A DNA stretch of 64,000 nt from positions 16,878,974-16,942,973 of the forward strand of contig NC_049982.1 in the NCBI RefSeq assembly GCF_000003815.2. The letters are read 5' to 3'. The notes beneath the pieces are model-generated. The model was not told the DNA's origin. It was given only the letters and a program-made list of their open reading frames with translations, and did not search any database. The stretch is from Branchiostoma floridae (lineage: Eukaryota; Chordata; Leptocardii; Amphioxiformes; Branchiostomatidae). Within the stretch, counting starts at the first letter, position 1, and each line of letters begins with the position of its first letter. The position numbers and the translations under genes were made by a program. Below, piece after piece: positions 245 to 27,451 of the stretch.

Positions 245-306
245 CGGTCTTGCCAATGCACTGGCGCCCAAACCAAAACAAACGCTATTGTCATGTAGAC
301 TCCCTG
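245..306 (+). repeat. GGCGCC-SOX module, copy 1
   Basis: GGCGCC at 263-268, then CAAACCAAAACAAACGC (17 nt) and TATTGTCAT, then GTAGACTCCC. The proximal arm has diverged (TTGCCAATGCACT). It shares a further 100 bp of flank with copies 6 and 8. Confidence 0.7.
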
Positions 307-439
307 GTCAGAACCGATCGGAAACGTTGTTTGTCGAACAATGGCATCATTACGACGTATTGTTTTATTTACGACGTATTGTTTTACCGTGAAGAAAGTA
401 TTTTTAGAAATAAGATGTTCCCGTCATCACAGAAGACGT

Positions 440-470
440 CGCTTACCTCGCTGGCGCGCGCCTGGAGCAA
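440..470 (+). repeat. Degenerate GGCGCC-SOX module, copy 1b
   Basis: GACGTCGCTTACCTCGCTGG followed by CGCGCGCC keeps the proximal arm (compare GACGTCGCTAGCCCCGCTGG), but the palindrome is mutated and the SOX-like half is lost. Confidence 0.5.
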
Positions 471-568
471 AAATTTCTTAGCAAACTGTATATTATTAAG
501 GTTCTCTAATTCTGGGAAAGGGAGTTTGACGTGGAAAGGACTTTCGGCCGCTCAAATTGCTTCAAGCA

Positions 569-865
569 ATACCAACACTCTCCCGCCCGCTACACAAACA
601 GATCGCTGCCCGCTACACAACAGAGGAGTCCAAAACTTTTTGTTTACTGACTTCTCACCACCTCCAATGGGACAACAATGGTTAACAAGGTGTGAAGAAC
701 GGGAGGATTCCCCAATTAGACATGATTATTGGGGCTTTTTACCTGGAGGTGATATTTGTCCACTGGCGACAGCAGTCTTGCACTTGCGCTTCATTGACTA
801 TTGAGATGTTAACAGAACTAATTAGCGTAACGTTACATATAGCATATGTCAGGGTTGAAGCAATG
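569..865 (-). repeat. 270-bp dispersed repeat, copy A
   Basis: Inverse of the copies at 2258 and 3885. Shared landmarks are the CACTCTCCCGCCCGC region, TTACTGACTTCTCACCACCT and CTGGAGGTGATATTTGTCCA. No coding capacity; the short frames are chance. The match to 3885-4238 extends into ACTAATTAG and TCAGGGTTGAAGCAA. Confidence 0.8.
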
Positions 866-1603
866 AAGTATCATTTTAACTTCCTTGGTTGAAGGAGGTT
901 GATTAAAGGAAACTTCAAAAAGAAATACACTATCCCCAAGAATGTCAACACGAAACTAAAGCTACTACTAGTATATCTTACAATTTTGACACAAGGACGG
1001 AAGATGTAGTCAGTACCTTGGACAGGTCTTATTTGTAAATGACTGCAACGCTCTCATTTCTCGGTAGGTGTCCTACAGGCACTACAGGTACGCGAGTGGC
1101 AATGTTGAGGGATTTCTTTGAGTTCTCTTTTTTCTTAGCATACATTTGTAAATGTCTGTTCGTCTTCCTTCTTGCTACTTGCCATGTATTTATTATGTTG
1201 CTTATACATTTTCATTCCTTTAAGAATTTGAGTGACAGCTCCCCTCAGTGGATGGACGTTTGCGCACCGAAAGCCATGATGCCAGAACAAGGTTACTCTT
1301 TCAGAATTTGAGACTTAAACCAAGGACGTCCTTTCTTAAACCATGAGCTTTTCCATCTTTGTAAAATCTCCTTGCTTAATTTTAAACCAGGAAAAGTGTA
1401 CTTGTAAGTGTAAAGAAGTTATTCTTCATACCCATACTATACAAAACTAGACCAAATACATGAAGCTATATTATGCCCTTGGTTAACGAAGATTTAGAGG
1501 TAGCTTTTAGACTAGAGTAGACACATGTTGTATTGTTCTACACTATTTGTCCGTCCACTTACATATTGCATGTACCAGCAATAGTTTGCAATAAGCTAAA
1601 TTA

Positions 1604-1777
1604 TAATCTCCAAGCAGATCCTACAATGGCATAAGATAGTACCAAACTGGCCAAAGACTGTAGTCAGCCAAAAGGTGTCCATTTGCCCCGGTAGCGAAAC
1701 ACACTCCTAAGCCGGCTTCAGTCCTCTGCCAGCTTTTGATACTATCTTATGCTACCATAGGATCTGCTTGGAGATTA
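1604..1777. mobile_element. MITE with TAATCTCCAAGCAGATC ends, copy 1
   Basis: Inverted ends TAATCTCCAAGCAGATCCTA and TAGGATCTGCTTGGAGATTA. Flanking 9-mers GCTAAATTA and GCTAAATCA differ at one base. Confidence 0.8.
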
Positions 1778-1796
1778 GCTAAATCATTCTATATGT

Positions 1797-1867
1797 CATC
1801 AAAGCTCAGACGTCGCTAGCCCCGCTGGCGCCGGAATCAAAACAAGTTCATTGTCATTTATGACTCC
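1797..1867 (+). repeat. GGCGCC-SOX module, copy 2
   Basis: CATCAAAG, CAGACGTC, GCTAGCCCCGCT, GGCGCC (1826-1831), 16-nt linker with AATCAAAACAA, CATTGTCAT (1848-1856), TTATGACTCCC. It is the outer end of the left arm of the 1786-3114 foldback. Confidence 0.8.
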
Positions 1868-2140
1868 CACAGAGATTGGTAAACTGGTAACAATTCAGCC
1901 TGTTTCACGGAGGATCGAGTGAAAATACAATTATCACAGATCGTTATATCGTCAGCAGGTCCGATGACACCGTCCAACAGTAGAAACAAGATAGGAAGTT
2001 TTAATACCACCCTGGAACTAGTCTTGGGCTAAAACTTGTAAAGGCGACAGGAAAGTGCGAGGCGACAGGAAGTATCAGAAAAAAGTAGCTTGTTATCTGT
2101 TTTGATTTTAGTAACAGAAACTCTAGTCACACATCAGACC

Positions 2141-2149
2141 AAGGAGGTT
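2141..2149. mobile_element. Solo arm AAGGAGGTT with 9-bp flank duplication
   Basis: CATCAGACC / AAGGAGGTT / GATCAGACT: only one arm of the micro-foldback, flanked by near-identical 9-mers. It could be an excision footprint. Confidence 0.55.
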
Positions 2150-2257
2150 GATCAGACTGATATACTTCCAACTTAACAAACTCACACATGTGATTCATTT
2201 GCGCTATTTTAGGTCCAGATCGGTATGCGACGAACAAACGGTCTAATAATTAGTCGA

Positions 2258-2523
2258 TTGACAAGTGCAAGACTGCTGTCGCCAGTGGACAAATATCACC
2301 TCCAGGTAAAAAGACCCAACAATTGTGTATAATTAGGCAATCTTCACACCTTGTTCACTATTGTTGTCCCGTTGGAGGTGGTGAGAAGTCAGTAAACAGA
2401 GTTGTTGGACTTCTCTATTGTGTAGCAGGCAGCGATCTGTTTGTGTGGCGGGCGGGAGAGTGTTGGTTTTAGACGGAAATACTCGTCTTGGAGTGTTTGT
2501 AGAGTTGGCAGTAAACCAGTGTG
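2258..2523 (+). repeat. 270-bp dispersed repeat, copy B
   Basis: Same family (GTGCAAGACTGCTGTCGCCA start), placed in the spacer of the 1786-3114 foldback. A second GTTTGAACATGTTTGTAAAG segment follows at about 2605. Confidence 0.8.
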
Positions 2524-2680
2524 GTGTGTGATTAGATGTTGTAAACTTGTAGAAAAAGACGAGTTAACTTGCTTGGGAGTGTTTACTCTGCACGGAATTA
2601 CATGTTTGAACATGTTTGTAAAGTTGGAAGTATATCAGTCTGTACAAGGAGGTTAAAGAATCACTGGTCTGTATCTGATC

Positions 2681-2702
2681 AAGGAGCTTTCGTCAACTCC
2701 TT
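2681..2702. mobile_element. AAGG...CCTT micro-foldback, 22 bp
   Basis: AAGGAGCTTTCGTCAACTCC + TT between TATCTGATC and GATCTGATG (seven of nine bases repeated). Confidence 0.65.
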
Positions 2703-3030
2703 GATCTGATGTGTTATTATGTATCACCAAATTTGAGATAAGTATAGAGTTGCCTTTTTCGTGAAAGATACTCGTTTCTGTTACTAACATCAAAACAGAT
2801 AACAAGCTACTTTTTTCTGATACTTCCTGTCGCCTCGCACTTTCCTGTCTGTCGCCTTTACAAGTTGTAGCCCAAGACTAGTTCCAGGGTGGTATCAAGA
2901 CTTCCTATCTTGTTTCTACTGTTGGACGGTGTCATCGGACCTGCTGACGATATAACGATCTGTGATAATTGTATTTTCACTCGATCCTCCGTGAAACAGG
3001 CTGAATTGTTACCAGTTTACCAATCTCTGT

Positions 3031-3102
3031 GGGAGTCATAAATGACAATGAACTTGTTTTGATTCCGGCGCCAGCGGGGCTAGCGACGTCTGAGCTTTGA
3101 TG
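3031..3102 (-). repeat. GGCGCC-SOX module, copy 3
   Basis: Mirror image of copy 2 in the right arm of the foldback, with GGCGCC at 3067-3072. All sub-motifs and the 16-nt linker are kept. Confidence 0.8.
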
Positions 3103-3884
3103 ACATATAGAATAATACTACATGTAGTACTAGTACATGTCTTAACCCAGTAACCGCCATGCTTTGTCTCAGCTGAGCCTGAAGACTAACTTCGTTGCAA
3201 TAAGTAAGGTAAAATTTGGATTTTGACAAAAAAACGTACGATCCTCCAAGCAAGAAAAAGCTCCTTGCTCCAAGCAATGACAATGTTCTTGTTTAGAGAC
3301 AAGTCTCACTGACATCATGGCTTTCGACTCACGAATGGACTTGGCGGGGAAGCTGCACTGACCGTGAGAATCGCCCGATTATCCCGTCAAATACTACACT
3401 GCAGAATGAAACTGTGATTGTTAAGCTTAAATCGTTAACGAACAAACTAATGATGAATAAACAAATGAATGAGTGCATATCTTTGCCATACAACGGGTGA
3501 AGAACAAGTGATCTTGAGCTAGAGCTGATAAATGTAACAAGAGTGTTACTAGTAGCTTTTTTATGAAAGCTCCTTGGGCGAAGCAATGGCTCGAAGTAAT
3601 GAAAACGGCTCAATGATATAGATCAATGAAATCAATGCGACGAAGAAACACGAAAAAACGCTTACAAGTGAGACACAAATTCGTTGTAGTGACGCCCGTG
3701 TCCATTTCGAGCCAGTCGAGAAAAGAAAGTACTGCAGGCATTTGCGACTAATGCCTGTCCAAGGTGCTGACTAGACCTTTAAATAGTACATGTAGTAAAT
3801 TTTCCACGTGTAGAAGTTGGAAGACATGTTACTCTCCTTAGTGTCAACACTCCTAAAAATGTTATTTTCATTCTACAGTCTCTT

Positions 3885-4238
3885 TATCAACGTCCTTGCT
3901 TCAACCCTGACATATGCTGTATGTACACTAATTAGTTCTGTTTACATCTCAATAGTCAATGAAGCGCAAGTGCAAGACTGCTGTCGCCAGTGGACAAATA
4001 TCACCTCCAGGTAAAAGGACCCAATAATCATGTCTAATTGGGGAATCCTCCCGTTCTTCACACCTTGTTCACTATTGTTGTCCCATTGGAGGTGGTGAGA
4101 AGTCAGTAAACAGAGTTGTTGGACTTCTCTATTGTGCAGCAAGCAGCGATCTGTTTGTGTGGCGGGCGGGAGAGTGTTGGTTTTGGACGGAAATACTCGT
4201 GTTTGAGTGTTTGTAGAGTTGGAAATAAACCAATGCGC
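3885..4238 (+). repeat. 270-bp dispersed repeat, copy C
   Basis: Longest copy of the family; it shares its 5' extension (CTTCAACCCTGACATATGCT) with copy A. Confidence 0.8.
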
Positions 4239-4548
4239 CATGAGGGTAGAAGCTACGTTTGGCAGAAAAGAAAACTCAATGGCATCACTAAACTTGATTA
4301 CACCATGGAGGATAAGCTCCTTGTTTTAATACACTGTTGACGGAACTTCAAGTCTTTTACAAATGGGAACTAAACGAGCGTTGCTCTCAATAAAAGAATT
4401 AAAACAGGAAAGACTTTGTACATCTGATAAGACAAAGCTTGTCTATTTGTTCAAAGATTTGAAGGGCAGTATTACTACGTTTTACTACTTCAGATGTGTG
4501 CACTGGGATCCACTTTGTAAAGACGTGATGGAGAGTACGGCTTTGACC

Positions 4549-4584
4549 AAGGACGTTATACAATAGTTATATAACGTCCTTGTT
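4549..4584. mobile_element. AAGG...CCTT micro-foldback with GCTTTGACC duplication
   Basis: AAGGACGTTATA ... TATAACGTCCTT(GTT) flanked by GCTTTGACC on both sides (4540-4548, 4585-4593). A third GCTTTGACC follows after only AAG, as if an earlier insert had been excised. Confidence 0.75.
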
Positions 4585-4702
4585 GCTTTGACCAAGGCTT
4601 TGACCAAACAGGTATCACTCGCACTTTGTTTTGACAATGACGTGCTAAGCCATCATGATTGTATTGTTTCTGCTGATGTCGTGTGAAATGTGCTGAGCTC
4701 GG

Positions 4703-4762
4703 TGGGAGCCATGAATGACAATGACGTTGTTTTTGTTCGGGCGCCAACGGACCTAGCACCAT
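4703..4762 (-). repeat. GGCGCC-SOX module, copy 4
   Basis: GGGAGCCATGA, ATGACAATG, 16-nt linker, GGCGCC (4739-4744), then AACGGACCTAGCACC, a drifted proximal arm. Confidence 0.7.
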
Positions 4763-4802
4763 GTTCCCTGTAGACGGCCCAATAATACCTACCTCACATT
4801 TT

Positions 4803-4969
4803 CAAACCGGGGCCAGACCGGACAGATTTCGGGAACGAAAAATATGATACAAAAGAAATCAAAATAGATAAAGCGTAAAAAGTATTGGACATGAGTTGTG
4901 TATATTTCTAGGCATGCATATTTATTTTTCGTTTCCTAAAACTTGGAAGCCCGGCTTGGCCCCGGTTTG
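4803..4969. mobile_element. MITE with CAAACCGGGGCCA ends
   Basis: CAAACCGGGGCCA at 4803-4815 is the exact inverse of TGGCCCCGGTTTG at 4957-4969. The interior is AT-rich, and no clear target duplication is seen. Confidence 0.7.
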
Positions 4970-5114
4970 TAAATTGCACCCCAGCAGTAGCATAAGCAAA
5001 GACATACAGTGCCGACGTACACGCGCTTGATTTACAGTATTTGGGATATTGATCAATTGATTTATCTTATCAACGTCTCTGGCCATAATAGATTATTTTT
5101 TTATGGTATTCTAC

Positions 5115-5142
5115 AAGGAGGTTGAATAGGGCCAACCTCCTT
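5115..5142. mobile_element. AAGG...CCTT micro-foldback, 28 bp
   Basis: AAGGAGGTT ... AACCTCCTT with flanks GTATTCTAC and GAATTCTAT (seven of nine match). Confidence 0.7.
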
Positions 5143-5391
5143 GAATTCTATATACTAGTAATAGTAGTATGGCATACTGGTTTCCATCGTTTTCCTGGGT
5201 TACTTACCAGAACTAACATTAAATGCGTTACAATATTACCACATAATTTACTGCCGGATACTAATTTTTTAGTATTCCATAACTAGGCCTCCTCCTCATT
5301 TTCTGTATCAGGCGTATATCTGTAATGGCTATATTGTTTCTTTATGTAGGTGCGAAAGGAGCTGACTTGATACCAGTATTTAGATCTCCGC

Positions 5392-5463
5392 GGGAGTCAT
5401 GAATGACAATGAACTTGTTTTTCTTCAGGCGCCAGCGGGGCTAGCGACGTCTGCCCTCTGATG
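5392..5463 (-). repeat. GGCGCC-SOX module, copy 5
   Basis: GGGAGTCATGA, ATGACAATG, 16-nt linker, GGCGCC (5428-5433), AGCGGGGCTAGCGACGTCTG, CTCTGATG. A full-length copy. Confidence 0.8.
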
Positions 5464-5597
5464 ACGCTGGGTGTCTTTTCCAGCTCTTCCGCCCCATGAC
5501 AACACCTCCCCCGAGAAGCTGCGAGTTTTTCACAGTAAAACAATACGTCGTAATGACGACATTGTCCGACAACACTGTTCCCGATCGGTTCTGCCCA

Positions 5598-5668
5598 GGG
5601 AGCCCACATGACAATGGCGTTTGTTTTGGTTTGGGCGCCAGCGGGACTGGCATGTCTACTGTCTGATC
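5598..5668 (-). repeat. GGCGCC-SOX module, copy 6
   Basis: ATGACAATG, 17-nt linker with TTTGTTTTGGTTTG, GGCGCC (5634-5639), AGCGGGACTGGC, ATGTCTACTGTCTGATC. It lies 200 bp from copy 5 in the same orientation. Confidence 0.8.
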
Positions 5669-6831: not shown

Positions 6832-6897
6832 ACCACCAGGTGACAATGGTTGTTTTTCTTGTGGCGCCGGCGGGGCTAGCGAGAGCGGACTTTGTCG
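6832..6897 (-). repeat. GGCGCC-SOX module, copy 7
   Basis: GTGACAATG, a shorter 14-nt linker, GGCGCC (6863-6868), GGCGGGGCTAGCGAGAGCGG. The distal TCF-like part is lost or replaced by ACTTTGTCG. Confidence 0.7.
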
Positions 6898-7400
6898 CTT
6901 CTGTACAAGTACAAAGCCATGTTTATGAAGTTATAAGTAATGAGCTTGATTTATATGTAACTTCTACCTCTTAGCATTTCTTACGAGTAATAGTAATACG
7001 CGAGAGTGAGATACATTGATAACTTAACGACCCTCACCCAGTGAAAAAGTTTTTCATTCAAAATTTTATTGAACAGTATTCTGTGGTCTCGTCAATAAGT
7101 ACATGCACGCAGAGATTTGGCTCCGGCTGTTTTTATACGTGTTACATGCGGTTTTGTCGGACTTCCTATTTTGCACTGTTGTGTTTTGTCGATCATCATA
7201 ATTTCTATTTTGCAATTTCTTCAAGACGGCCGGGGAACAGTACAAAAAAAACTTAGAAGACCCGAGAAAATAGAGTGATGTGTACGTATATATTGGTCAT
7301 CGGTATCAGATCGTATAAACCTGCCGACACAAGTTTATACCTCAAAATCAAGGCACCGTAAAAACAACTTGAACTTTGAACAAAAACGCGCAAGTGACAT

Positions 7401-7468
7401 AAAACAGTAGACATGCCAGCCCCGTTGGCGCCCAAACCAAAACAAACGCCATTGTCATGTGGGCTCCC
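7401..7468 (+). repeat. GGCGCC-SOX module, copy 8
   Basis: CAGTAGACATGCCAGCCCCG, TT, GGCGCC (7427-7432), CAAACCAAAACAAACGC, CATTGTCAT, GTGGGCTCCC. The inverted relative of copy 6, including the flank up to about 7535. Confidence 0.8.
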
Positions 7469-7786
7469 TGGGCAGAACCGATCGGGAACAGTGTTGTCGG
7501 ACAATATCATCATTACGACGAATTGTTTTACTGTAAAAAAAAACTTTCGATCTTTGACTGAACACTGAAATGTGTTCGCTTACAGTGTACGTATCTTTTC
7601 GTACAAATTTCCGTACACTGATAGGACCAAACAACATCTAGCGAATACGGCAGTGAATAGGAACGAATATATACATCTATGATATAACGAGACATAAATA
7701 GGCGAAGTTTACAAATTTGTCTTGTTGTTTGACCCCCTGTGGATGAGGAAATCGATGTATTCAAAGACAAGTGATGGATGTACCGA

Positions 7787-7804
7787 CCACTGGCGCCAGC
7801 AGAC
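7787..7804 (-). promoter_or_regulatory. BMP-type SMAD motif GTCTGCTGGCGCCAG upstream of Vent copy A
   Basis: On the minus strand the sequence reads CAGTCTGCTGGCGCCAGTGG. A GTCTG SMAD half-site lies 2 bp from GGCGCC, the palindrome known in BMP-responsive elements of Id and vent-type genes (family knowledge). The same GTCTGCTGGCGCCAG lies at 15691-15702 upstream of copy B, and a tighter version lies upstream of the third homeobox gene. Confidence 0.6.
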
Positions 7805-7849
7805 TGGCACCTCACCCCCGTACCCCTGGCCGTGACCCGCCCACAGCTA

Positions 7850-8035
7850 CCGGCTCATTGGGCGCGTCAATAGGTGATAAACGCGCGGCTGTTCACACCG
7901 TTTGGCAAGTAATCGCCGCCGATGAGGCCTTTGTTTTAGGGCGGGTGAGCTATCGGCTGCACGGCGGGACACTGTCGCCTGAAGCACAACAAACCCGGCG
8001 GTGGGACATCGGGATGCGTCTGAGGGGGAGGGGCT
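7850..8035 (+). promoter_or_regulatory. Upstream block shared by both Vent copies (copy A side)
   Basis: This 186-bp non-coding block matches the reverse complement of 15443-15628 with about two mismatches that I can see. The sequence between it and the gene (8036-8424) has no evident match in copy B. It contains AACAAAGG (TCF/LEF-like, on the minus strand), GATTA (Otx/Gsc-like, on the minus strand), GTCTG (SMAD-like) and GC-rich stretches such as GGCGGGACA. It starts about 50 bp after a GTCTG-CT-GGCGCC motif (minus-strand reading, 7792-7802). The best reading is an enhancer duplicated with the gene and kept by selection or conversion. Confidence 0.75.
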
Positions 8036-8424
8036 TACCGGGTGGGGTAGCCCAGGAGGTGGACATAAATGACAAATGAGACATGAAGAAATTGTCGTTG
8101 GGAAAGAAAACAAACCATACATGGCACTTGGGAACTTTCTTTAATATATGGTTTCCCAATAAACAATATTCCTTCAATACATAACAAACATGAGGCCATG
8201 GTAGCGTCAAGACATTTTAATATCTTAAAACACATTTTTCTCTGCAAGCTGTATAAAAGTAGATTTTCTTGAAGCGGTACGTTGCTCTGAAGTTTCTCAT
8301 CACCACATGCTGAAATAATTAGCCATGTCTAGCTGGTACAACAATGTAAACAAAAGTGAGCCCAAAGCTGACCAATAGGAGCACGAGACAACTCATGAAT
8401 ACGCGAGTCACCGACACTGCGGGC

Positions 8425-8495: not shown

Positions 8496-9335
8496 ATGGC
8501 CTCCTACAAACTGCCTTTCGCTCTATCAGTGGAAAACCTGATCGGATCAGCACCCGACGCCGTGCCGGACATGAGATCGTCCAGTCCCGAGAGTCTCCCG
8601 CTGAAGAAGCGCCATCTCCTGGTCGCCGCCGCGCCCCTGCCGAACTTGAGCGCCGTGACGCTGCGGAGTGACGGCGAGACGTCCGAGGACGAGGAGATCG
8701 ACGTTGTGTCGGAGTCGTCCTGCGACGACCTGCAGACCACAGACGCACCAGCCTCACCAGCTTCCAGCACGAGTTCAGACCGCTCCAGCCCAGCACCTTC
8801 CTGCGACGACAGCCCGTCCCCCTCCCCGGCAGGCCGCAAGGCACGCACGGCCTTCACCACGGAGCAGGTCATGGCCCTGGAGGAGCGTTTCCGCCTGCAG
8901 AAGTACCTGTCCGCCGCCGACCGGGAAACTCTGGCCAAGGCCACGGGACTGACCGACGAGCAGGTCAAGACGTGGTTCCAGAACCGCCGCATGAAGCTGA
9001 AGCGCCAGCAGCAAGACTTCGCCACCTTCCCGCTGCACGCCTCCGTCACCGTGCCCGGGATGCCCGGCTACTCCCCACAGCCCAACCCCTGGTACGACTC
9101 CGCGCACTTCGTCCCGTCCCTCGGCACCGCCGTCTGTGGTCTGCGGCCTCACATGCTGCCCCAGCCCGCCAACACCGTGACCACCAGCCGTGGGAGCAGA
9201 TACTCACCGTACCCGTCTGCCCGCGTGTCTCCGTCCGGCCGCAGCCACCACCAGATGACCAACATGTACATGTCTCCGTACCAGAACAACGTGGCAGGGG
9301 CGCACTACCACAACGTACCCGGTGTTTACATGTAA
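8496..9335 (+). CDS. Vent: Vent-family homeobox protein (copy A, single exon)
   Basis: A 279-residue open frame that looks complete in one exon. The homeodomain spans about residues 113-172 (starting GRKARTAF) and ends [15 protein letters not shown], with Thr47, Gln50 and Asn51; Thr47 with MKLKRQ is typical of Vent and Bar-type NKL homeodomains. Vent proteins are nuclear transcription factors, mostly repressors, acting in ventral mesoderm downstream of BMP signalling (family knowledge). An eh1-like Groucho-binding motif (FALSVENLI, residues 8-16) sits at the N-terminus, followed by an acidic Ser-rich stretch ([16 protein letters not shown]). The C-terminal half is rich in Pro, Ser and Tyr. 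The ATG has a good context (cgaccATGG) and lies 66 nt after a TATAAA box. It faces copy B at 13.9-14.9 kb, which is nearly identical from residue 89 to residue 275 but has an intron that is missing here. Codon use is strongly GC-rich at third positions. Confidence 0.93.
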
Positions 9336-9629
9336 ACATCAGAGACACTTGCAAAAGACTTATTTTTAGTTATTAGGCTCTTACAGGCTGCTGGATAGCC
9401 ATTACTATGGCAGCTGGATAGCCACTACTATGTGCAATATGTTCATCATTCTGTAAGAAATAATGTAAGCTACTAGTATATGTGCCGAAATATTCTATGC
9501 AGAGCTTGTTATGTTTGTAAGAAAAGTTTTGAGATTATAATATATTTTGTGGCTAAAAGAGAAACAACTTGACCAGATAACATATTTTTGTAAGGTCTTC
9601 AGTGATATCTTTGATATAACGAGAATAAA
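9336..9629 (+). terminator. 3' UTR of Vent copy A with poly(A) signal
   Basis: The stretch after the stop codon is AT-rich and non-coding, and holds a tandem GCTGGATAGCCA duplication near 9390-9425. The first AATAAA is at 9624-9629 (GAGAATAAATG), giving a 3' UTR of about 300 nt. Confidence 0.6.
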
Positions 9630-11107: not shown

Positions 11108-11122
11108 GGCGCCGTCCAGTCT
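11108..11122 (+). promoter_or_regulatory. GGCGCC-N5-GTCT SMAD-like site between the Vent genes
   Basis: GGCGCC followed after 5 nt (GTCCA) by GTCT. This is the spacing described for SMAD complexes on BMP elements in flies and vertebrates (established knowledge). It is not part of the repeated module. Confidence 0.45.
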
Positions 11123-11762
11123 ACCAGTTGTTCTCCCGAAGCCCTGCCCCTCCCACTGCAAAAACATGGAGTAATCCCCGGAAAATCGGCAAAATATGGT
11201 GTATAGATCGACCGCTGTTATCGTCGTCACCAAGCGTCGTCACCGGCTGATAGGCTGATAGCCTATGCGCCATCTAGCTGAGCTGAGGAGTTCTGAAACC
11301 TCGATAAAAGTACATTGCGCCTAACAAGGAGGTTACAGAAGCCGTTGCTTCCCTAAATTTCGATTTTTTGTGGAGCCATTTGATGTTGGTGAACCATAAG
11401 GAGACATCTTTCGTCACAACCGCCCTGACTTTTTTTAATCATAAAAATTTAAAATGACGTCACAACCCCTCTCTTGCCATAAAATATGTCATGGAAAAGG
11501 CTTTTCTTACGAGAACCCCCCTCTTCTCATACTAGCGGAGTTTGCTATGGAGGTTTTACCTACATGTATCTGTCAATAGCCGATGCGAAGTCTCACAATT
11601 ATCTTATCTCCAGACAAGGGATTACTTCCACCGTATCAGACTAACCAATTGAGTCGGTTCCTTCTCATGTGCCATCTTTCTAATCGTTTATAATTTTCTC
11701 CAAGTTTCCAAATTGTGGGTGAGCCCCTTGCTCCGGGCAGTCTGGCCAGACGTAAAGGAAAG

Positions 11763-11818
11763 GCGCTAGGCCCGCTGGCGCCCTTCCGAAAACACAGCAA
11801 TGGATCCCATTGTTTTAC
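11763..11818 (+). repeat. GGCGCC-SOX module, copy 9 (diverged)
   Basis: GCGCTAGGCCCGCTGGCGCC (GGCGCC 11777-11782), then a longer 24-nt linker with GAAAACACAGCAATGG and CCATTGTTT. It lies between the two convergent Vent genes. Confidence 0.55.
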
Positions 11819-13541: not shown

Positions 13542-13887
13542 CAAAGAATATTGAACAGATAAATAGTAATCTTTCAAACTCAAAGTGCAAAAGATACACG
13601 GTATAAAAATAGAATAATCATTTCCTCTAAATATAAAATCTTTTGGGCTATTTACAACGGTTTAAATACGGCTATATGGAACAAAATAATCTATTTGGAA
13701 TAAAACTTTTACGTCGATAAAATTCTCTTACATATATACACAAGTTAGTCCCTGAGTGAATGGTTTCGACCAAAAGAACTGCAGCGAACTTTTGATCTAG
13801 ATCTAGCGTTTCAAGTCCATGTATTGAACAGCAATACAGTGAAAATATTGTCAGTGTCCAAGAATACATTTGTTCAGGTCTCATCTT

Positions 13888-14881
13888 TTAGAAGTTCATG
13901 CTGGGTACGTTGTTGTAGTGCGCCCCTGCCACGTTGTTCTGGTACGGAGACATGTACATGTTGGTCATCTGGGGGTGGCTGCGGCCGGACGGAGACACGC
14001 GGGCAGACGGGTACGGTGAGTATCTGTTCCCACGGCTGGTGGTCACGGTGTTGGCGGGCTGAGGCAGCATGTGAGGCCGCAGACCACAGACGGCGGTGCC
14101 GAGGGACGGGACGAAGTGCGCCGAGTCGTACCAGGGGTTGGGCTGTGGGGAGTAGCCGGGCATCCCGGGCACGGTGACGGAGGCGTGCAGCGGGAAGGTG
14201 GCGAAGTCTTGCTGCTGGCGCTTCAGCTTCATACGGCGGTTCTGGAACCACGTCTTGACCTGCTCGTCGGTCAGTCCCGTGGCCTTGGCCAGAGTTTCCC
14301 GGTCGGCGGCGGACAGGTACTTCTGCAGGCGGAAACGCTCCTCCAGGGCCATGACCTGCTCGGTGGTGAAGGCCGTGCGTGCCTTGCGGCCTGCCGGGGA
14401 GGGAGACGGGCTGTCGTCGCAGGAAGGTGCTGGGCTGGAGCGGTCTGAACTCGTGCTGGAAGCTGGACGGGTAAAAAGAAAACGCTATAAGAAACACTGT
14501 TCGGTTTTTCATACGGTATTTTGGTTGATCTATCTATATATGATATAGTCAAAGTTTGCGGAAGAGTTGCCGATATAAAGTCATCAAGAAACGGAACATG
14601 TCCTTACCAGGTGAGGCTGCGTCCCCAATGGAAACGACGTCGATCTCCTCCTCCTCGTCAGACGTTTCTCCGTCACTCCGCAGAGCGTTAGCGGCGGGCG
14701 GCACGACTTGAGCGGCGGTCCGAGTGTTTGCGTCCGGGCCCGGCGAGGCGGTGAACAGGAGGTGACGCTTCTTCGGTGGAAGACATTCGGGGCTGGAAGC
14801 TCTGATGTCAGGGACAAGGTCAGTTCGAGCGCCGATCAAGTTTTCCACGGAGAGAGCGAAGGGGAGCTTGCAGGCAGTCAT
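13888..14881 (-). CDS. Vent: Vent-family homeobox protein (copy B, two exons)
   Basis: Exon 1 is 14881-14608 and exon 2 is 14462-13888. The 145-bp intron has donor CCTG|GTAAGG and acceptor CCGTCCAG|CTTCC, phase 1. The product is 282 aa with the homeodomain at residues 116-175, identical to copy A there, including Thr47, Gln50 and Asn51. From residue 92 to near the end the proteins differ at only three positions before the tail, where copy A ends VPGVYM and this copy ends VPSMNF. Exon 1 has diverged (it has [17 protein letters not shown], absent from copy A) but keeps the FALSVENLI eh1-like motif and the acidic [15 protein letters not shown] stretch. The start at 14881 aligns with the MASYK start of copy A; the upstream in-frame ATG at 14986 lies before the TATA box and was not used. 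Two intact, distinct N-termini argue for two real genes. Confidence 0.93.
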
Positions 14882-14943
14882 GGTTGTCGCGTGTTCGTCA
14901 CTGGAGTGTGGGAGAAATGATTGAGGTGGGAGGTTTCTCCCAG

Positions 14944-15442: not shown

Positions 15443-15628
15443 AAGCCCCTCCCCCTCAGACGCATCCCGATGTGCCACCGCCGGGTTTGTTGTGGTTCAG
15501 GCGACAGTGTCCCGCCGTGCAGCCGATAGCTCACCCGCCCTAAAACAAAGGCCTCATCGGCGGCGATTACTTGCCAAACGGTGTGAACAGCCGCGCGTTT
15601 ATCACCTATTGACGCGCCCAATGAGCCG
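15443..15628 (-). promoter_or_regulatory. Upstream block shared by both Vent copies (copy B side)
   Basis: Reverse-complement partner of 7850-8035, about 560-750 bp upstream of this gene's ATG. It has the same ACAAAGG, GATTA and CAGAC sites in the same order. Only two substitutions were spotted (GATGTGCCACC against GATGTCCCACC, and TGTGGTTCAGG against TGTGCTTCAGG). The flanks on both sides have diverged. Confidence 0.75.
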
Positions 15629-15686
15629 GGAGATTGGGGGCGGGTCCAGGCAGGGCAGCAGGCATGGTGGCCGGAGGCAGCGGGTT

Positions 15687-15704
15687 GGTCTGCTGGCGCC
15701 AGCG
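15687..15704 (+). promoter_or_regulatory. BMP-type SMAD motif GTCTGCTGGCGCCAG upstream of Vent copy B
   Basis: TTGGTCTGCTGGCGCCAGCGG on the plus strand, the distal edge of the shared upstream region. It gives the same GTCTG-CT-GGCGCC arrangement as at 7787-7804, about 815 bp from the ATG. Between it and the 186-bp block only GGGCGGGTC is clearly kept. Confidence 0.6.
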
Positions 15705-16009
15705 GCGAAGAAGAAAGCTCGTTATCAAGATAATGAAGATATGTTCATCAAAATACAGGAAGATAATTTGTCTCAATTTGCCGTACGCTCAGGATGCGAA
15801 GCGACTTGCCCATTGATAAAACAAGCGTTTTTCTACCACTCGGTGTACAGAAAAGTTCTTGGAATAGAGTACTCTAAGATTGGTGATATTATTTCCCAAT
15901 GACTATGCGAGAAAAACTACCAGTACTAGTAAATGAAAATCTATTACCCTCTATGTCCTACCAAGGCTCAACTGTTTTTCGCTGCTCTGACGGAACTGGA
16001 AGGATGAAA

Positions 16010-16082
16010 CATCAGAGAGCAGACGTCGCTAGCCCCGCTGGCGCCCAAACCAAAACAACGTCATTGTTATTCATGACATCCC
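16010..16082 (+). repeat. GGCGCC-SOX module, copy 10
   Basis: CATCAGAG, CAGACGTC, GCTAGCCCCGCT, GGCGCC (16040-16045), 16-nt linker, CATTGTTAT, TCATGACATCCC. Full length, 300 bp beyond the shared region of Vent copy B. Confidence 0.8.
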
Positions 16083-16448
16083 GCGATGAGCAGGGTAATA
16101 TCCGGTAACTACATGCTCGGTACTTCAAAATGTAACAAAATACTGTAATTACAGATCATTAAACCATTGTAGAACGAAAGTGTCTTGTATGATACTTGAA
16201 TTACCGTGTGGTTTCCGGTCATTTTTATCACATGTTTAATGTTGTTCCAATGGCGTAAAAGCATGACAGCCTTGGTTCTTTCGGCTCTCCTGTAGTTTAC
16301 AATCCAACTGAACGCATACATTTGTATGCATTCAGTTAGATTGTCTTTAGACTTTATACTGGCCTGGATCCCGGCTCTCATCGCTCAAAACTTGATACGT
16401 TCGAGTTGACGATATTTGTTTCGGAGCTCATTGAGTCTATTACATGTC

Positions 16449-16721
16449 TACTTACAACTCTACAAACACTCCAAGACGAGTATTTCCGTCTAAAACCAAC
16501 ACTCTCCCGCCCGCCACACAAACAGATCGCTGCCTGCTACACAATAGAGAAGTCCAACAACTCTGTTTACTGACTTCTCACCACCTCCAACGGGACAACA
16601 ATAGTGAACAAGGTGTGAAGATTGCCTAATTATACACAATTGTTGGGTCTTTTTACCTGGAGGTGATATTTGTCCACTGGCGACAGCAGTCTTGCACTTG
16701 TCGAACGACCAATTAGACCCT
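16449..16721 (-). repeat. 270-bp dispersed repeat, copy D
   Basis: Inverse copy on the far side of the Vent pair. It is closer to copy B than to A or C (AATTGTGTATAATTAGGCAA shared with B). Confidence 0.8.
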
Positions 16722-16907
16722 TTGTCCGCAATGTACTGTATCTGTGGATAAAAGCTCCTTGGTCGAATGGACACTTTCTGCAAATTATATTCCTTTACGT
16801 CATACTACTAACCATTGCGACTTGAAGAGGGAGAAGTCAGCTCGGAGTCTCAGACTGTTACAAGTTGACCAATCGGTTCTGTCCCGCCTTTCCCGCCCCT
16901 CTCTGTA

Positions 16908-16960
16908 TGATAGTTGAATCACAATAAACTTTGTTTTTATTGTGGCGCCATCAGAAAAGG
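16908..16960 (-). repeat. GGCGCC-SOX module, copy 11 (half)
   Basis: TCACAATA, 17-nt linker AACTTTGTTTTTATTGT, GGCGCC (16944-16949). The proximal arm is lost (ATCAGAAAAGG). Confidence 0.55.
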
Positions 16961-17834: not shown

Positions 17835-17925
17835 CCTGTACAGCATGACGTCATGATCAAACGACAGACTCGCCAGTCCCGCTGGCGCCGAGAACCCAAA
17901 TACGGTCATTGTCATGTATGACACA
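17835..17925 (+). repeat. GGCGCC-SOX module, copy 12, with CRE
   Basis: CATGACGTCATGATCAAAC (CRE palindrome next to a TCF-like site), GACAGACTC, GCCAGTCCCGCT, GGCGCC (17884-17889), 17-nt linker, CATTGTCAT, GTATGAC. The CRE+GATCAAAC part is shared with copy 15. Confidence 0.8.
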
Positions 17926-18502: not shown

Positions 18503-18574
18503 GATCAAATGCTAGACTGACCAGCCCCGCTGGCGCCTGGAACCAAAACAAAGCGATTGTCATTTATGGTGACC
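18503..18574 (+). repeat. GGCGCC-SOX module, copy 13
   Basis: GATCAAATG, CTAGACTGACCAGCCCCGCT, GGCGCC (18532-18537), 17-nt linker TGGAACCAAAACAAAGC, GATTGTCAT, TTATGG. Confidence 0.8.
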
Positions 18575-21836: not shown

Positions 21837-21847
21837 AGATAAAAAAG
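21837..21847 (+). promoter_or_regulatory. Possible TATA-like element of homeobox copy C
   Basis: AGATAAAAAAGG about 200 bp upstream of the start codon. It is only a weak TATA match and no other core promoter motif was found, so the call is tentative. Confidence 0.25.
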
Positions 21848-22045: not shown

Positions 22046-24073
22046 ATGGCACGGAATCACCTCTTCTCTATCGAGAGGCTGGGCACAGAGTAGCCGGGTC
22101 CCGGAGAAGGAGGACACGGCTTGTGACCGCGAGGTGGCCCGTATAACCTCCTCCAGCTCGCCGGTTCAAGTTCGGCGCCACGTCCCCGTCTTGCCGCAGC
22201 CGACACAACCGTCCTACTACCAAAGGGTAAGCCCGCGTCGAACATATCTTCGAAACTGTGCTTAAATAACAGGTTGGAAAAGCAAGTCCACTTTTTGACA
22301 ATGAAAATTTACTTGTAGCCGATTTGCTTTCGTACTCGGTATGTTTACTTCCTTCCTAACTTTACATGATCTTATACATTGTATAATGGTTTCTTTTTAT
22401 CCATTACTTTTTATACAGACACGCGCGATGAAGAAGCCAAGTTCCCGCACACCGGTGACGACCAAAGAAAACTTCACTTCCCCGGTCATCTCGCCTGACT
22501 CCCGCCGGACAGGACAGACCATGTGCCGGGCAGTTCCCGCCGACTCCACGTCAGAACAAACGTCAGACGGAGACAACACCAGCGATATTGAAAATGGTAT
22601 GAAAATTATAGCTTTGATCATCCAAACTCTCCTTGGAACCATCGTGTATAGGTAGTAAGATACGCATCTTGTACATTATAACTGCCGTACATCAAGGACG
22701 TTATGTAAACTTGCGTACACGTATCATTGATTTTTATTCCCGTGAAAGTCGGGTTTGTCGTCAGTTAGTGTGTTTGTTTGTGTGTAGTCGTGTGTGTCAC
22801 AGGAAGAGGGCAAAGTAGTGGTATACTCAAAAGTAGGATGATGGTTTGGCTAGTCTATGTCCCTGTTGGCAAACCTCATTTGGTTTCGTTGATTTTCAGA
22901 ACGATACTCCCCGGACACCCCGGGTAGCGACTCCCCGGGCCCAGACCGTGTTCCCTCCCGGGAGAACAAGAAGCTGCGCACGGCGTTCTCCAGCCACCAG
23001 GTCCATGAGCTGGAGACTCGGTTCAGCACGCAGAAGTACCTGTCTGCCTCTGACAGGGAGGAGCTGGCCCATGCACTGGATCTCACAGACGCACAGGTAC
23101 GGTCCAACTCTGGTGACTCGTAAGTTTTTATCTATAGACAGTCTCTTCTTCGCAAGCTCCGAAGACAACTCTAATCTCCAAGCAGATCCTACAATGGCAT
23201 AAGATAGTACCAAACTGGCCAAGGAGTGTAGTCAGCCAAGAGGTGTACATTTGCCATGTAGCGAAACACACTCCTAAGTCGGCTTCACTCCTCTGCCAGC
23301 TTTTGATGCTATCTTGTGCTACCATAGGATCTGCTTGGTAGATTAGAGAACTCCACTTGCTGTCTATGTACACAATGACAACGGGAATAGAGTATTTGCC
23401 ACCGTCAGCACACGGATGACATTTATTAGAGCAATTTAAATTTGTACACGTTTTGTGCATAAAAACGTCCATCTTTCTAATCATAACATCATAAGTGTTA
23501 AATGGCGGTTTGCTACCGAGATAAACATGGAATGCAATAAAACTGCGATGACAAAGCAATGCTGAGACATCGGTAAAGCAAAGTCACTAATAGATGTGCT
23601 TCTGTCCTCCGCAGGTAAAGACGTGGTTCCAGAACCGCCGGATGAAGTGGAAGCGGCAGGTCCAGGACGCCGAGAGCGAGGCTCGACGGTTCGGCATGTT
23701 CGGTCCCCACCACCCTCACTTGGCGTTCTTCCCCTCCCTGGGCGTCACCCTAGCGGGACTGACCCCCAACATGCTCGGTCACAGCGGCCACAGTCTCCCA
23801 CCCGCGTCCGCCGTCCATCCCACCGGACCCGTGCATCACTATGGACAGGGATATCACCCTTACACGGTCCCCGTGCCTTCTCACCACCCCCCATCTGCAC
23901 CTGTACCCCAGACACATCATGTACCCGGACAGATGCTAACGTCAGGGTACCGTGGTCCACCCTACCACCCCTGGGGAGACCCCACACACCAGCCACCCGG
24001 GTGTGGGGCACCCGGCTCGCCCCAGGAACCACTGAGACACAACCCAGGACTTCTCAATGTAGGGGTGCACTGA
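22046..24073 (+). CDS. Vent-like homeobox gene (copy C), four exons, frame break in exon 1
   Basis: Exons 22046-22226, 22419-22596, 22900-23096 and 23615-24073, with donors AGG|GTAAGC, AATG|GTATGA and CAG|GTACGG, acceptors TTATACAG, GATTTTCAG and CCTCCGCAG, and consistent phases 0, 1 and 0. The homeodomain (about residues 142-201, NKKLRTAF to MKWKRQVQD) has Thr47, Gln50 and Asn51 and is split between residues 44 and 45, an intron position seen in many NKL genes and absent from copies A and B. The N-terminus [13 protein letters not shown] has an eh1-like repression motif. In the ATG frame a TAG comes at 22091, but the +1 frame from 22092 stays open to the donor and joins exon 2 in frame, so the assembly carries one extra base here. 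Without it the product would be about 337 aa. The C-terminus is rich in Pro and His. Vent is the best family guess; another NKL class such as Bar is possible. Confidence 0.83.
23172..23345. mobile_element. MITE with TAATCTCCAAGCAGATC ends, copy 2, in homeobox intron 3
   Basis: Close copy of 1604-1777 lying between homeodomain exons 3 and 4 of copy C. It has split an older repeat whose uninterrupted relative is at 20860-20965; the flanks AGACAACTC and AGAGAACTC are the duplicated target. Confidence 0.85.
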
Positions 24074-24411
24074 CATTACGATATTTGAACGCTTAGAACT
24101 GTAAAAGATCATAATGATTTTATCAAGAACTGTCGAGAAGGTTACTAGTATTGATTTTATGAAGATGTATATTTAGCCCTTTTCTCATGAGTTATTATGA
24201 CGAAAGCCAATAACTTTCTCTGTACATGTATATATGACGATAGCTTTCTCCATACATGTACTATATTAACTTGTTCTTACATGTACATCATCATACTAGT
24301 ACATGTACTAAGTTTAATGTTGATGACCTATGACGAAAGAAGCATTGTTTAATACTTGTACTAGTTTTCGACTGTCCGAGTTTTCGACAATCATATGCTA
24401 TGTTGGAATGT

Positions 24412-24478
24412 AATAAAAGAAAGAGATGTATTTTTATATAACGTTACATGTATATATGATGCATATCTGTAGAATAAA
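24412..24478 (+). terminator. Two poly(A) signals of homeobox copy C
   Basis: AATAAA at 24412-24417 and again at 24473-24478, about 340-400 nt after the stop codon at 24071-24073. The 3' UTR between is AT-rich with repeated TACATGTA. Confidence 0.6.
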
Positions 24479-24559
24479 TAGTGGTATCGACATATGCCTG
24501 GCTCTTGTGTGTTTTTAATCACAAGTTCTATCGTGCACGGGACGGGCACATATCTAGCA

Positions 24560-26000
24560 CATGGGTCTAATAAAGTTCAGGTAATAGGGCAGAAATGCTC
24601 ATCAAAATCGTAGAAAGATCATACAAAAACTGAAAAAGTACTCGTCCAGGCCGTTTCGATAAAAGATAGTAGTAAGTTTTATTGCAAATTCATGCTCGTG
24701 GGCTAATTGCAGGTAGCATACAAGATTCAAACAGTGTAAAATACAATATCACAGGTGTCTAGTCTAAAACTAGTGAGAGCTAACTCTAGATCCTGGGTTA
24801 TTGGGTTCGACTCCTTGTTTGAAGACAGTGGAAGACGAAAGATCCCACCTTTTCTATAGATGCCGATTGGCTCGTCTCAGGTAGGAGTATCAACTATCAT
24901 ATGGCAAGGTGTCGGGCCAGGTGTCGGGCTATCGGTACATCAAAATCGTCAAAAGAATATAGAAATAATAATCTACCAAAGCGTCAAAAGTAAATGGATT
25001 ACTGTCTGACTTCACACATCACTTAGGTGACGACTCACGCGTCCCGTGCTGACTCGCGACGGGGTGGGAAGTTATCAGATCCAAGTTTTCAGTAGCCTGG
25101 ATGCCACTGTTTCCTGGAACTACACAGGCAAGCTGAGTTAGATCCTGTACGATAGATATTTTATTGATGAGATCGGGTTGGGGGTTTGGAATTCAAGTGC
25201 ACCAGTTTACACTATATGGAAGCAGAATATTTCAAGTTCCTTTCTTCAAAAGTTCTTACTTTTGCAGCTCGGATCTGACTTTTAAATGCAGCACATTAGA
25301 CCACTCACGGAATTCAATAAACAAACTGTCTGGCATAGAATCTACTATTAATCCAAGATTAGCCAACTTTCCAGGGGCCAACACAAACCAACTCCTCGGC
25401 TCTGGGGACAACATACCCCCAAAGAGATTCTACAGCAGACAGGAGTTTAATAGACCCTGGTGGAGGATACACGATCTGGCATCCAGGTTACCACAAGACT
25501 GGGGCTTAAAAACTTCTCACAGGACTGCCAAGTCACGCTAATCCTATTCAAGGTCTTTTCACCCAAAGTACGATTCATTCGCAACACAGTAAGGGGAAGT
25601 TCAAGCGCTTTGCATTTATCTTGGATCGTTTCCGAGGTTATCCCTTTGGTCAGCCCTGTCACTCTAGGTCCAAAGCCCTTGATCCACTTCGTTTATGTTG
25701 ACAAAGACGAGCTAATCTCCGTCCACCATTCGCCGCTCTTAATTGGGATTAACCTAATCTCTTATCTGTAATTCGTGTGAAGGACCTCCAATTGACAGAA
25801 ATATGATTTCGGTAAATAGAATCAAATAGTGTAGATGAAGACCTTAGAAATGTTTATAAAGGACGGATATTAACTTTGTAACTACAGTACAGTTACTAGT
25901 AATACAAACAATCAACCAATGAGTGTGACTGGTTTATTTGCAACAGGTGCACACACATACCCTTGCAGCTTACCTGTCTTAATTAGGTTATGATGTAGAA
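24560..26000. other. Intergenic stretch, no feature seen
   Basis: After the copy C poly(A) signals both strands lack splice-consistent or conserved-looking frames. The 125-aa frame at 25164 has no recognisable domain. Confidence 0.6.
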
Positions 26001-26100
26001 AACATTCATACAATTCTAAAAAATAAGAACAGTGAGAAAAAGTAATAAAATGAAGTCATGTAGTAATTCTCTTTTCGGAGACGATTTCAGCCAGTGCATA

Positions 26101-26230
26101 TAGCCTCCATAGCAGGCTCTCTGGGCTGCTGGCAGTACAAGCGACCCAGTACAACAAGAAATGGCCAACAGAAGTGTTCGATGAGCCAAAAAAGACGAAC
26201 AAAGGCCCAGAGTGTCTGCTATGGAGGCTA
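26101..26230. mobile_element. MITE with TAGCCTCCATAGCAG ends
   Basis: TAGCCTCCATAGCAGGCTCT pairs with AGAGTGTCTGCTATGGAGGC + TA; CAGTGCA is repeated just outside both ends. The open frames here (for example 26094-26342) are by-products. Confidence 0.8.
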
Positions 26231-26932
26231 CAGTGCATCCCAAAAGTGTATTGACTACGGCATGATCCCACGGCCCATGATGTGCGCCACGGGACCGTCT
26301 GAAGCTCTCTCCAGGACCTCCCCTTATCTCATGTCTGGTTGATGATCCTTTACCCTGGACGCTTTCTACATCTGTGCTATTAATGAAATGAGATGTAAAC
26401 AAACAGCATTTCCAAATCCCATTTTACTCGGTGTCTGGTCCTGCCGACCACCCCTGTAGAATCCCATGTTATGTTTATTTAGATTTCTTTAATTAGTTAT
26501 TTTTACCGTTGACGGTAAACTGTAAACGGACAAACGAGCTGTTATTTCTGTGGTGTGCATGGGCCCTGTGTGGTAGACTTCTTTGCTTTATGCTGGTGCT
26601 GGCAAGAAGGGTAGTGCTCAGAAGACGATCTATAACTATTGACCTACTTCTGACACTGGCACCTACATCGTCTTCAATGCTTCGCTTATCCTCTTCATCT
26701 ATATCCAAGTTACGAATACTAAATCCGACACAGACTTTCGAAAATACTAGATACAAGCTTCATATCCCACCTGAGCATACATGGTATGTCAAGTTGATAG
26801 TCAAGTTACAATACCGTACAATGCCTATCACTTTAACTATGTTTCGCGCGTTCCGACAAAAATAAACAGCTTTAATTGATTCTTTTGTTTCCCGTCACAT
26901 TATCTATTACAGTCATAACTGAAGACCTTATG

Positions 26933-26996
26933 TGGTATACATAACAAAGCGGTTGTTTTGCTTGTGGGCGCCAGCGGGGCTGGTCAGTTTTGATAG
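26933..26996 (-). repeat. GGCGCC-SOX module, copy 14
   Basis: ATAACAAAG (SOX-like CTTTGTTAT on minus), 17-nt linker with TTGTTTTGCTTG, GGCGCC (26967-26972), AGCGGGGCTGGTCAG, TTTTGATAG. Confidence 0.75.
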
Positions 26997-27071
26997 CCAA
27001 ATGCTACATGTACCTATTTCCACGCCCAATAGCCAAATTCTGAAAAGTTTAAGTAATATCTACTTGTAATC

Positions 27072-27097
27072 AAGGAGGTTCTTCCTATAACCTCCTT
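27072..27097. mobile_element. AAGG...CCTT micro-foldback, 26 bp
   Basis: AAGGAGGTTCTTCC + TATAACCTCCTT; the flanks are only weakly alike. A solo AACCTCCTT arm lies at 27174. Confidence 0.6.
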
Positions 27098-27369
27098 GAT
27101 CTAATTCATGAACAAGAGGTACCGGTCTATGAAAACTGCGACACGTTGTAACGTTTTAAAATAAAGTTTTTAACCTCCTTGGTTAAACTACAAATTACTT
27201 ATCATCCTTGTGTTAGGGACTATTTCTTTTTAATCTATTTCATTAGCAAACCCACTTCTGTACGTTGCACCTTCATGTGAAAAGCCCCATCTTATGCTCG
27301 CGACATCCGCAAAGTGTTGTTTAGCGATGAGTTGTCGATATTTCCACCTATGCTCCAAGCAGATGCTTC

Positions 27370-27451
27370 ATTCATGACAATGACCGTGTCTGGGTCCATG
27401 GCGCCAGCGGGGCTAGCGTGTTTGTGTTTGATCATGACGTCATGTATTGTA
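27370..27451 (-). repeat. GGCGCC-SOX module, copy 15, with CRE
   Basis: TTCATGACAATG, 17-nt linker, GGCGCC (27400-27405), AGCGGGGCTAGCG, TGTTTGTGTTTGATC, ATGACGTCATG. The last full copy; no others follow in the remaining 36 kb. Confidence 0.8.

Follow-up and report, generated by a model that had tools for sequence, protein, structure and literature searches.

The ID-type composite GGCGCC-N5-GTCTG of ID1/2/3 and of the BMP-responsive element (BRE) reporters has a palindromic GC-rich SMAD-binding element (GC-SBE) and, exactly 5 bp away, another SMAD-type half-site. In human cells, synthetic composites need this 5-bp spacing for a response to bone morphogenetic protein (BMP); a mixed composite with GTCTG is active, and SOX and GATA motifs lie near sub-optimal composites (PMC11907993). 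In Drosophila, the BMP silencer element (BMP-SE), GRCGNC(N5)GNCT, represses through Schnurri, and the BMP activating element (BMP-AE) is GGCGCCA(N4)GNCV (PMC7669266). The Goosecoid promoter has a nodal-regulated cluster of 5GC and GGCTG SMAD sites: MH1 structures of SMAD3/4 were obtained on TGCAGGCTAGCCTGCA, DNA containing GGCTAGCC, SMAD4 was crystallised on GGCTAGCC, and GGCTG was bound (PMC5727232). At the AmphiVent genes, which were published as direct BMP targets, the Vent1 -1230/+20 and Vent2 -912/+22 reporters were BMP-responsive in P19 cells, Vent1 via SMADs; mutation of all six CAGAC elements of the Vent1 promoter abolished the response, and no single one mattered (PMC3033397). In the portions of these reports that were consulted, the AmphiVent1 work treats single CAGAC sites and describes no repeated module, and the Goosecoid work mentions no fixed unit with SOX spacing. 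Here we analysed 64,000 nucleotides of Branchiostoma floridae (the window; contig NC_049982.1, C4:16878974-16942973) that carry both Vent genes and many copies of a ~70-bp module combining a 5-bp-spaced SMAD-type composite with a SOX-type core. The SMAD composite type is already known; the repeated composite with a SOX-type core at one locus is new here, and no repeated module of this kind was named in the titles or abstract openings of the literature searched. We read the module as a BMP-SMAD/SOX-type enhancer unit that was amplified in place around the two convergent Vent genes, and we put the probability of this reading at roughly 0.6.

The window was scanned unfiltered with R1, a sequence model of the module. 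The scan revealed 12 full copies (49-71 bits) and 3 partial copies, spanning positions 261-27433 (Table 1); among the 34 other matches listed, the best scored 10.8 bits. The R1 scores of the full copies are partly high by construction, because the same 12 copies were used to build R1. Pattern and DNA searches independent of R1 also recovered copies. GGCGCC occurs 23 times in the window vs 3.7 expected from shuffles, and 22 of the 23 lie within the first 27.5 kb. R1 found no module copy in the remaining 36 kb (27.5-64 kb) or in the 20 kb upstream of the window. Five full copies are on the plus strand and seven on the minus strand. A preliminary description of this DNA, made from its letters alone, had claimed about 15 copies, in both orientations and only at 0.2-27.5 kb; all of this was borne out. 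Among 13 copies (the 12 full ones and half copy 263), the linker from GGCGCC to CATTGTCAT or a variant of it measured 16 or 17 nt in all but one, where it was 14 nt. The near-fixed spacing described earlier therefore stands, with its count of 11 copies corrected to 12 of 13.

The copies surround the Vent genes on their upstream sides. Upstream of the Vent2 ATG there are seven full copies, at distances of ~1.07-6.7 kb. The Vent1 ATG has three at ~1.16-3.65 kb upstream and two more at ~12 kb upstream, past a third homeobox gene. Between the two start codons there was no full copy, only the partial copy 11777.

Read on the other strand, the core of the module is GGCGCC-AGCGG-GGCT. The string GGCGCC(N5)GNCT fits 12 of the 15 module copies (11 of the 12 full copies plus partial copy 11777) vs one of eight GGCGCC sites outside the copies; it is not matched by full copy 4740 or by partial copies 263 and 16944. 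A second half-site at exactly 5 bp and in ID-type orientation was thus found in 11 of the 12 full copies. The half-site was GGCT in nine full copies, GACT in two and ACCT in one, and extended to GGCTAG, GGCTGG or GACTGG (ACCTAG in copy 4740); GTCT was present only at the lone site 11108. The N of GNCT was more variable than its neighbours. Further out, CAGAC or TAGAC was present in 8/12 full copies. Two other parts that had been described as shared were less general, ATGAC or ATGGC being present in 6/12 and ATCAAAG intact only in copies 1827 and 3067.

Because its second half-site is GGCT or GACT, not GTCT, the module is not classed as ID-type. It further differs from the ID-type composite in its greater length and near-fixed layout, in its SOX-type core and in its repetition, at least 12 times, at one locus. 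The GGCT half-site resembles that bound by SMAD3/4 MH1 at Goosecoid, where the crystal DNA contains the GGCTAGCC string (PMC5727232). Eleven of the 12 full copies match the BMP-SE string; in flies, that element represses through Schnurri. BMP-AE identity was rejected: the final base is T in 12/12 full copies (consensus GNCV), in line with the one-base mismatch to the activating-element consensus noted beforehand. The BMP-SMAD signature proposed earlier was retained and refined to the 5-bp composite GRCGNC(N5)GNCT.

A SOX-type core, WTTGTY, was found in 12/12 full copies, at +15 to +18. We take WTTGTY to be a SOX motif; the A/T and C/T changes in this core presumably stay inside SOX degeneracy. 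The earlier mention of a SOX core, ATTGT, was thus correct as to the sequence motif. The distance from [CT]AGAC to WTTGT was 43 bp in all eight copies with both, and that from ATCARA to WTTGT was 52 bp in seven of nine. GGCGCC is shifted one base left or right between two groups of copies, so that an extra base on one side is offset by one fewer on the other; the constant 43 bp fits a constraint acting on the overall length. Judged by its motifs, the module is a candidate SMAD-SOX unit in which the SOX-type core keeps a near-fixed distance. SOX-POU composite, NFI, AP-2 and E2F sites were considered and dropped, as their spacing or bases appeared not to fit across copies. A TCF input as a shared feature, suggested earlier from ATCAAAG, was rejected: WWCAAAG was present in 2/12 copies, both of one lineage (1827 and 3067), and beta-catenin was reported to activate neither Vent promoter (PMC3033397).

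The module was, in most copy pairs, better kept than its surroundings. Unrelated 70-mers aligned at a mean of 0.48 and a maximum of 0.58, which served as the reference level. The right flank exceeded 0.58 in 7 of 78 copy pairs, the other 71 being at the unrelated level, and the left flank exceeded it in 0/78; module halves were mostly well above the unrelated level. The flanks have drifted while the grammar stayed, as stated in the preliminary description. Compared with alignable flank, the module was better kept in three of nine pairs (uncorrected P): 1827/5428 (0.89 vs 0.63, P 1e-4), 5428/16040 (0.89 vs 0.73, P 0.009) and 18532/26967 (0.85 vs 0.72, P 0.04). With the GGCGCC columns excluded, change rates inside the module were uneven (variance/mean 1.20 vs 0.72 simulated, P 0.001), and 15 columns never changed vs 6.8 expected (P 0.006); because similarity was used to recognise the copies and GGCGCC to list them at first, there is a bias toward whole-module conservation and less toward internal unevenness. 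In ten copies (near duplicates 3067 and 7427 left out), the near-invariant blocks were GCYAGNCCCGYTGGCGCC and CATTGTYAT, with the A-rich linker intermediate.

Within the 513-Mb genome (513,431,437 bases, 431 contigs), the module looks private to the Vent locus as far as it is searchable. The genome was covered by DNA and pattern searches and R1 was applied to selected stretches, so that strongly diverged copies elsewhere may be missed. A DNA search with copy 16003-16085 gave seven matches, all at this locus; it was not exhaustive, because it recovered 7 of the 12 known full copies. Core GCYAGNCCCGYTGGCGCC had nine exact matches, all here, and nine one-mismatch matches, four of them here (13 of 18 at ≤1 mismatch); at two mismatches there were 101 matches vs 68 for the reversed control. 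The five off-locus one-mismatch matches scored 9-20 bits with R1, and none reached the SOX part. All off-locus matches re-scored with R1 (30 loci and six 10-kb stretches) gave ≤20.4 bits vs 49-71 for full copies; the best, at C18:10320735 (20.4 bits), covered model positions 8-49 of 73 and was divided between two of the 10-kb stretches. The right-half pattern had four matches at 0-1 mismatch, all at this locus, and 76 at ≤3 mismatches vs 18 for the control, 46 of which belong to one unrelated repeat and 7 to this locus. The strict pattern GGCGCC-N10..25-CATTGTCAT gave 24 matches vs 2 for the reversed control; of the 24, 8 are at this locus, 5 belong to one other repeat and 11 are single. The spacing grammar ACAATG-N16/17-GGCGCC-N5-G gave 22 matches, 8 here and 14 elsewhere; with 16 in the reversed control, its occurrence elsewhere is at chance level. 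This restriction counts against a dispersed transposon. A dispersed transposon or miniature inverted-repeat transposable element (MITE) was rejected: 0/7 DNA matches and 0/9 exact core matches were off-locus. The thousands of copies named beforehand as a refuting outcome were not observed, and the suggestion of a transposon end supplying SMAD sites was not upheld, as these searches found no further genomic copy and the spacing grammar is no commoner elsewhere than in its control.

Homology between some copies extends beyond the module. It covers 343 nt at 97% in the inverted arms of 1827/3067 (1783-2121/2774-3116), 142 nt at 94% in 5634/7427 (87-89% with 263), ~150 nt at 70-77% in 1827/5428/16040, 86 nt at 84% in 17884/27400 and 159 nt at 68% in 18532/26967. 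Judged from these alignments, the copies multiplied through local and frequently inverted duplication. A second repeat, 220-330 bp long and likewise confined to this locus, has four genomic copies, 87-98% identical, at 568-786 (-), 2207-2536 (+), 3967-4250 (+) and 16446-16753 (-). Its distance from module copies 263, 1827/3067, 4740 and 16040 is a few hundred bases, so that larger blocks were duplicated too. Region 1783-3116 forms a large inverted repeat whose 652-nt loop contains a copy of this second repeat. Each copy of the second repeat has one AGGTGTGA and one TGTTTAC string, in either orientation, which we take to be T-box-like and Fox-like, respectively; the second repeat may itself be a regulatory element that was duplicated close to the modules.

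The published reporters can be placed in the window through their primers. Of the AmphiVent primers of PMC3033397, 616B matched exactly, 822A and 822C matched with one mismatch each, and 616A was exact over its 3' 17 bases. Primer 616A lies within copy 16040, which therefore forms the distal end of the Vent1 reporter. By primer position, the Vent1 reporter thus starts inside one copy and omits the rest, and neither reporter includes any of the other 11 full copies. Comparison by eye of primer 616A with the assembly at 16056-16082, the right end of copy 16040, showed four extra bases in the primer, which suggests a polymorphic module edge.

Three homeobox genes had been proposed for the interval. 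Two were confirmed by Pfam, and the third was supported by Pfam through its last exon only (Table 1). Vent2 can be read as a single uninterrupted frame, and Vent1 apparently has an intron in the second-exon area. The second-exon regions (Vent2 8757-9336, Vent1 13887-14466) are 97.4% identical and the first-exon parts 68%, which suggests gene conversion. The proximal upstream regions of Vent2 and Vent1 (7787-8036 and 15443-15705) share a 264-nt inverted match at 88.6%, including GGCGCC beside CAGAC/GTCTG. Elsewhere in the window, a 925-aa open frame at 43721-46498 resembles, by eye, the reverse transcriptase of a retrotransposon lacking long terminal repeats (non-LTR), and 27-bp and 28-bp tandem repeats lie at 54381-54576 and 33814-33953, respectively.

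Table 1. Module copies, genes and a lone SMAD-type site in the window. Full copies are named in the text by the position of their GGCGCC.
Feature	Position	Strand	Evidence
Full copy, GGCGCC at 1827; ~6.7 kb upstream of Vent2 ATG	1797..1867	+	R1 70.9 bits
Full copy, GGCGCC at 3067; inverted near-identical duplicate of 1797-1867	3032..3102	-	R1 70.9 bits; 343-nt arms 97%
Full-length match, GGCGCC at 4740; without GNCT and CAGAC, SOX-type core retained	4705..4771	-	R1 55.3 bits
Full copy, GGCGCC at 5428	5393..5463	-	R1 70.7 bits
Full copy, GGCGCC at 5634	5601..5668	-	R1 62.2 bits
Full copy, GGCGCC at 6863; 14-nt linker, without CAGAC	6836..6895	-	R1 49 bits
Full copy, GGCGCC at 7427; ~1.07 kb upstream of Vent2 ATG	7399..7465	+	R1 60.5 bits
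Full copy, GGCGCC at 16040; ~1.16 kb upstream of Vent1 ATG; contains primer 616A site	16010..16078	+	R1 69.8 bits; primer 3' 17 bases exact at 16056
Full copy, GGCGCC at 17884	17855..17924	+	R1 67.7 bits
Full copy, GGCGCC at 18532	18503..18570	+	R1 64.7 bits
Full copy, GGCGCC at 26967; ~6 nt short on left, without CAGAC	26933..26992	-	R1 50.5 bits
Full copy, GGCGCC at 27400; without CAGAC	27366..27433	-	R1 56.1 bits
Half module (copy 263): only GGCGCC, A-rich linker and SOX-type core	261..299	+	R1 28.3 bits
Partial module (copy 11777): core GCTAGGCCCGCTGGCGCC, SOX spacing lost	11762..11798	+	R1 22.9 bits
Doubtful right-half copy (16944)	16916..16951	-	R1 15.8 bits
Vent2 coding region, homeodomain; convergent with Vent1	8496..9335	+	Pfam Homeodomain 5.4e-22; ATG context; AmphiVent2 primers at 7566 and 8475, 1 mismatch each
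Vent1 coding region, homeodomain, apparently two exons	13888..14881	-	Pfam Homeodomain 2.9e-22; primer 616B exact at 14883
Third homeobox gene, Vent-like; exons within 22893-23123 and 23594-24073	22893..24073	+	Open reading frames; Pfam last exon 5.1e-6; 68% nucleotide match to Vent2 homeobox
Lone GGCGCC-GTCCA-GTCT, near ID-type SMAD composite, between Vent genes	11108..11122	+	Only 1 of 8 non-module GGCGCC sites fitting GGCGCC(N5)GNCT

In an enhancer unit of the kind proposed here, a SMAD1/5 pair would dock at GGCGCC and SMAD4 at the GNCT half-site five bp away. The outer CAGAC, about two turns out, would supply another SMAD4 contact, and a SOX/HMG factor would bind CATTGTYAT. Since the SOX-type core is 43 bp, or about four helical turns, from AGAC, the sites would lie on one face of the helix. 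The unit would have multiplied in place through local, often inverted, duplication; decay of the flanks and retention of the unit, for which selection would be the cause, would leave redundant copies on the outer (upstream) sides of the convergent Vent1 and Vent2, where they would activate both genes. Of the earlier proposal, a multi-input enhancer cassette or a transposon end, the clustered multi-site cassette with near-fixed spacing and a BMP-SMAD signature survives, and the TCF input and the transposon end do not. A more specific form is possible and quite tentative: the locus may have a private enhancer code, in which a rigid SMAD-SOX unit, with outer SMAD and SOX sites about four helical turns apart, was amplified to at least a dozen copies and selected, so that many weak, interchangeable units jointly set a steep, buffered BMP threshold for both genes.

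Several points weigh against reading the module as an enhancer unit, including some on which the alternatives below draw. PMC3033397 reports that in P19 cells the proximal Vent1 fragment acted as an autonomous BMP element whereas the distal one, -1214/-669, did not. The SMAD part of copy 16040 should fall within the distal fragment, and the active proximal fragment is without the module; the BMP-responsive Vent2 reporter, which starts ~100 bp after copy 7427, contains no module either. Position -1214 falls within AACAATG, 16 nt into primer 616A, so by this arithmetic the distal fragment would be without an intact SOX-type core. The result speaks against a SMAD core that suffices by itself in P19 cells, and on this arithmetic the fragment would assay only a cut copy. 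In the passages of PMC11907993 consulted, the active mixed composite carries GTCTG, and GGCGCC-N5-GGCT is not among the results shown. AGAC is lost in copies 4740, 6863, 26967 and 27400, and the halves that have decayed, left in 4740 and right in 6863, come close to the unrelated reference level in many pairs. The motif counts are not independent, because the copies are related, and the constant 43 bp may reflect one pair of compensating 1-nt indels. The 11 single strict-pattern matches elsewhere exceed the control without explanation.

The alternative that survives best, which we nevertheless consider unlikely, is that the copies have no function of their own and arose passively, as an unstable region underwent gene conversion and recurrent local and inverted duplication. 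The adjoining non-module repeats are likewise locus-only (1870-2140, 2 copies; 2247-2536, 4 copies), and the Vent second exons, at 97% vs 68% for the first-exon parts, suggest gene conversion. Moreover, the module was no better kept than its flank in three of the nine pairs (5634/7427, 1827/3067 and 1827/17884), and its advantage was marginal (P 0.06-0.07) in three others (1827/16040, 263/5634 and 263/7427). Neutral passage does not readily account for the recognisable module that most pairs retain despite flanks at the unrelated level, for the uneven rates within it (P 0.001), or for the several changes that fall at positions where SMAD and SOX sites are degenerate.

It is also rather unlikely that the module is an element for other factors, such as a chromatin-boundary protein, a zinc finger or another dimeric binder of the near-dyad GCYAG-NCCCG-YTGGC, its likeness to SMAD sites being incidental. 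Such a binder would suit the 18-bp near-invariant core, which includes the 5-bp spacer left free in SMAD consensuses and is more invariant than a SMAD consensus demands; the inverted half sites match at 3-5 of 5 positions in 12 copies, and the behaviour of the distal Vent1 fragment in P19 cells (PMC3033397) points the same way. However, the N of GNCT is the freer position, the GNCT spacing is exactly 5, and GGCGCC is invariant beside published BMP targets, although GGCGCC also served to list the copies first.

A local mobile element, with foldback or MITE-like ends or remnants confined to this locus and supplying SMAD sites, is improbable and largely refuted for this assembly. The copies occur in both orientations and some are carried on the inverted arms 1783-2121/2774-3116. 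The left flank is unrelated in 78/78 pairs while the right extends in 7/78, as a fixed left end would give as well. No copy was found elsewhere in 513 Mb, and inspection by eye, with no program run, revealed GTCAT/ATGAC as the only inverted ends, in a subset of the copies, and did not reveal a target-site duplication. A structured RNA element was rejected: a small core hairpin was predicted in the folded copies and one of six had a z-score of -3.0, but the other five ranged from -1.6 to 0.04, no Rfam match was present in 1-30000, and the copies lie in both orientations relative to the genes.

If the enhancer-unit reading is true, the natural copies, each with different sites missing, are a ready-made mutational series of its grammar. 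Whether enhancers need strict order and spacing or just a collection of sites is an old question, and this locus offers a dozen natural versions of one arrangement. If the copies are active, local duplication can multiply a whole regulatory sentence and not only single sites, and the Vent locus would allow a direct test of spacing rules.

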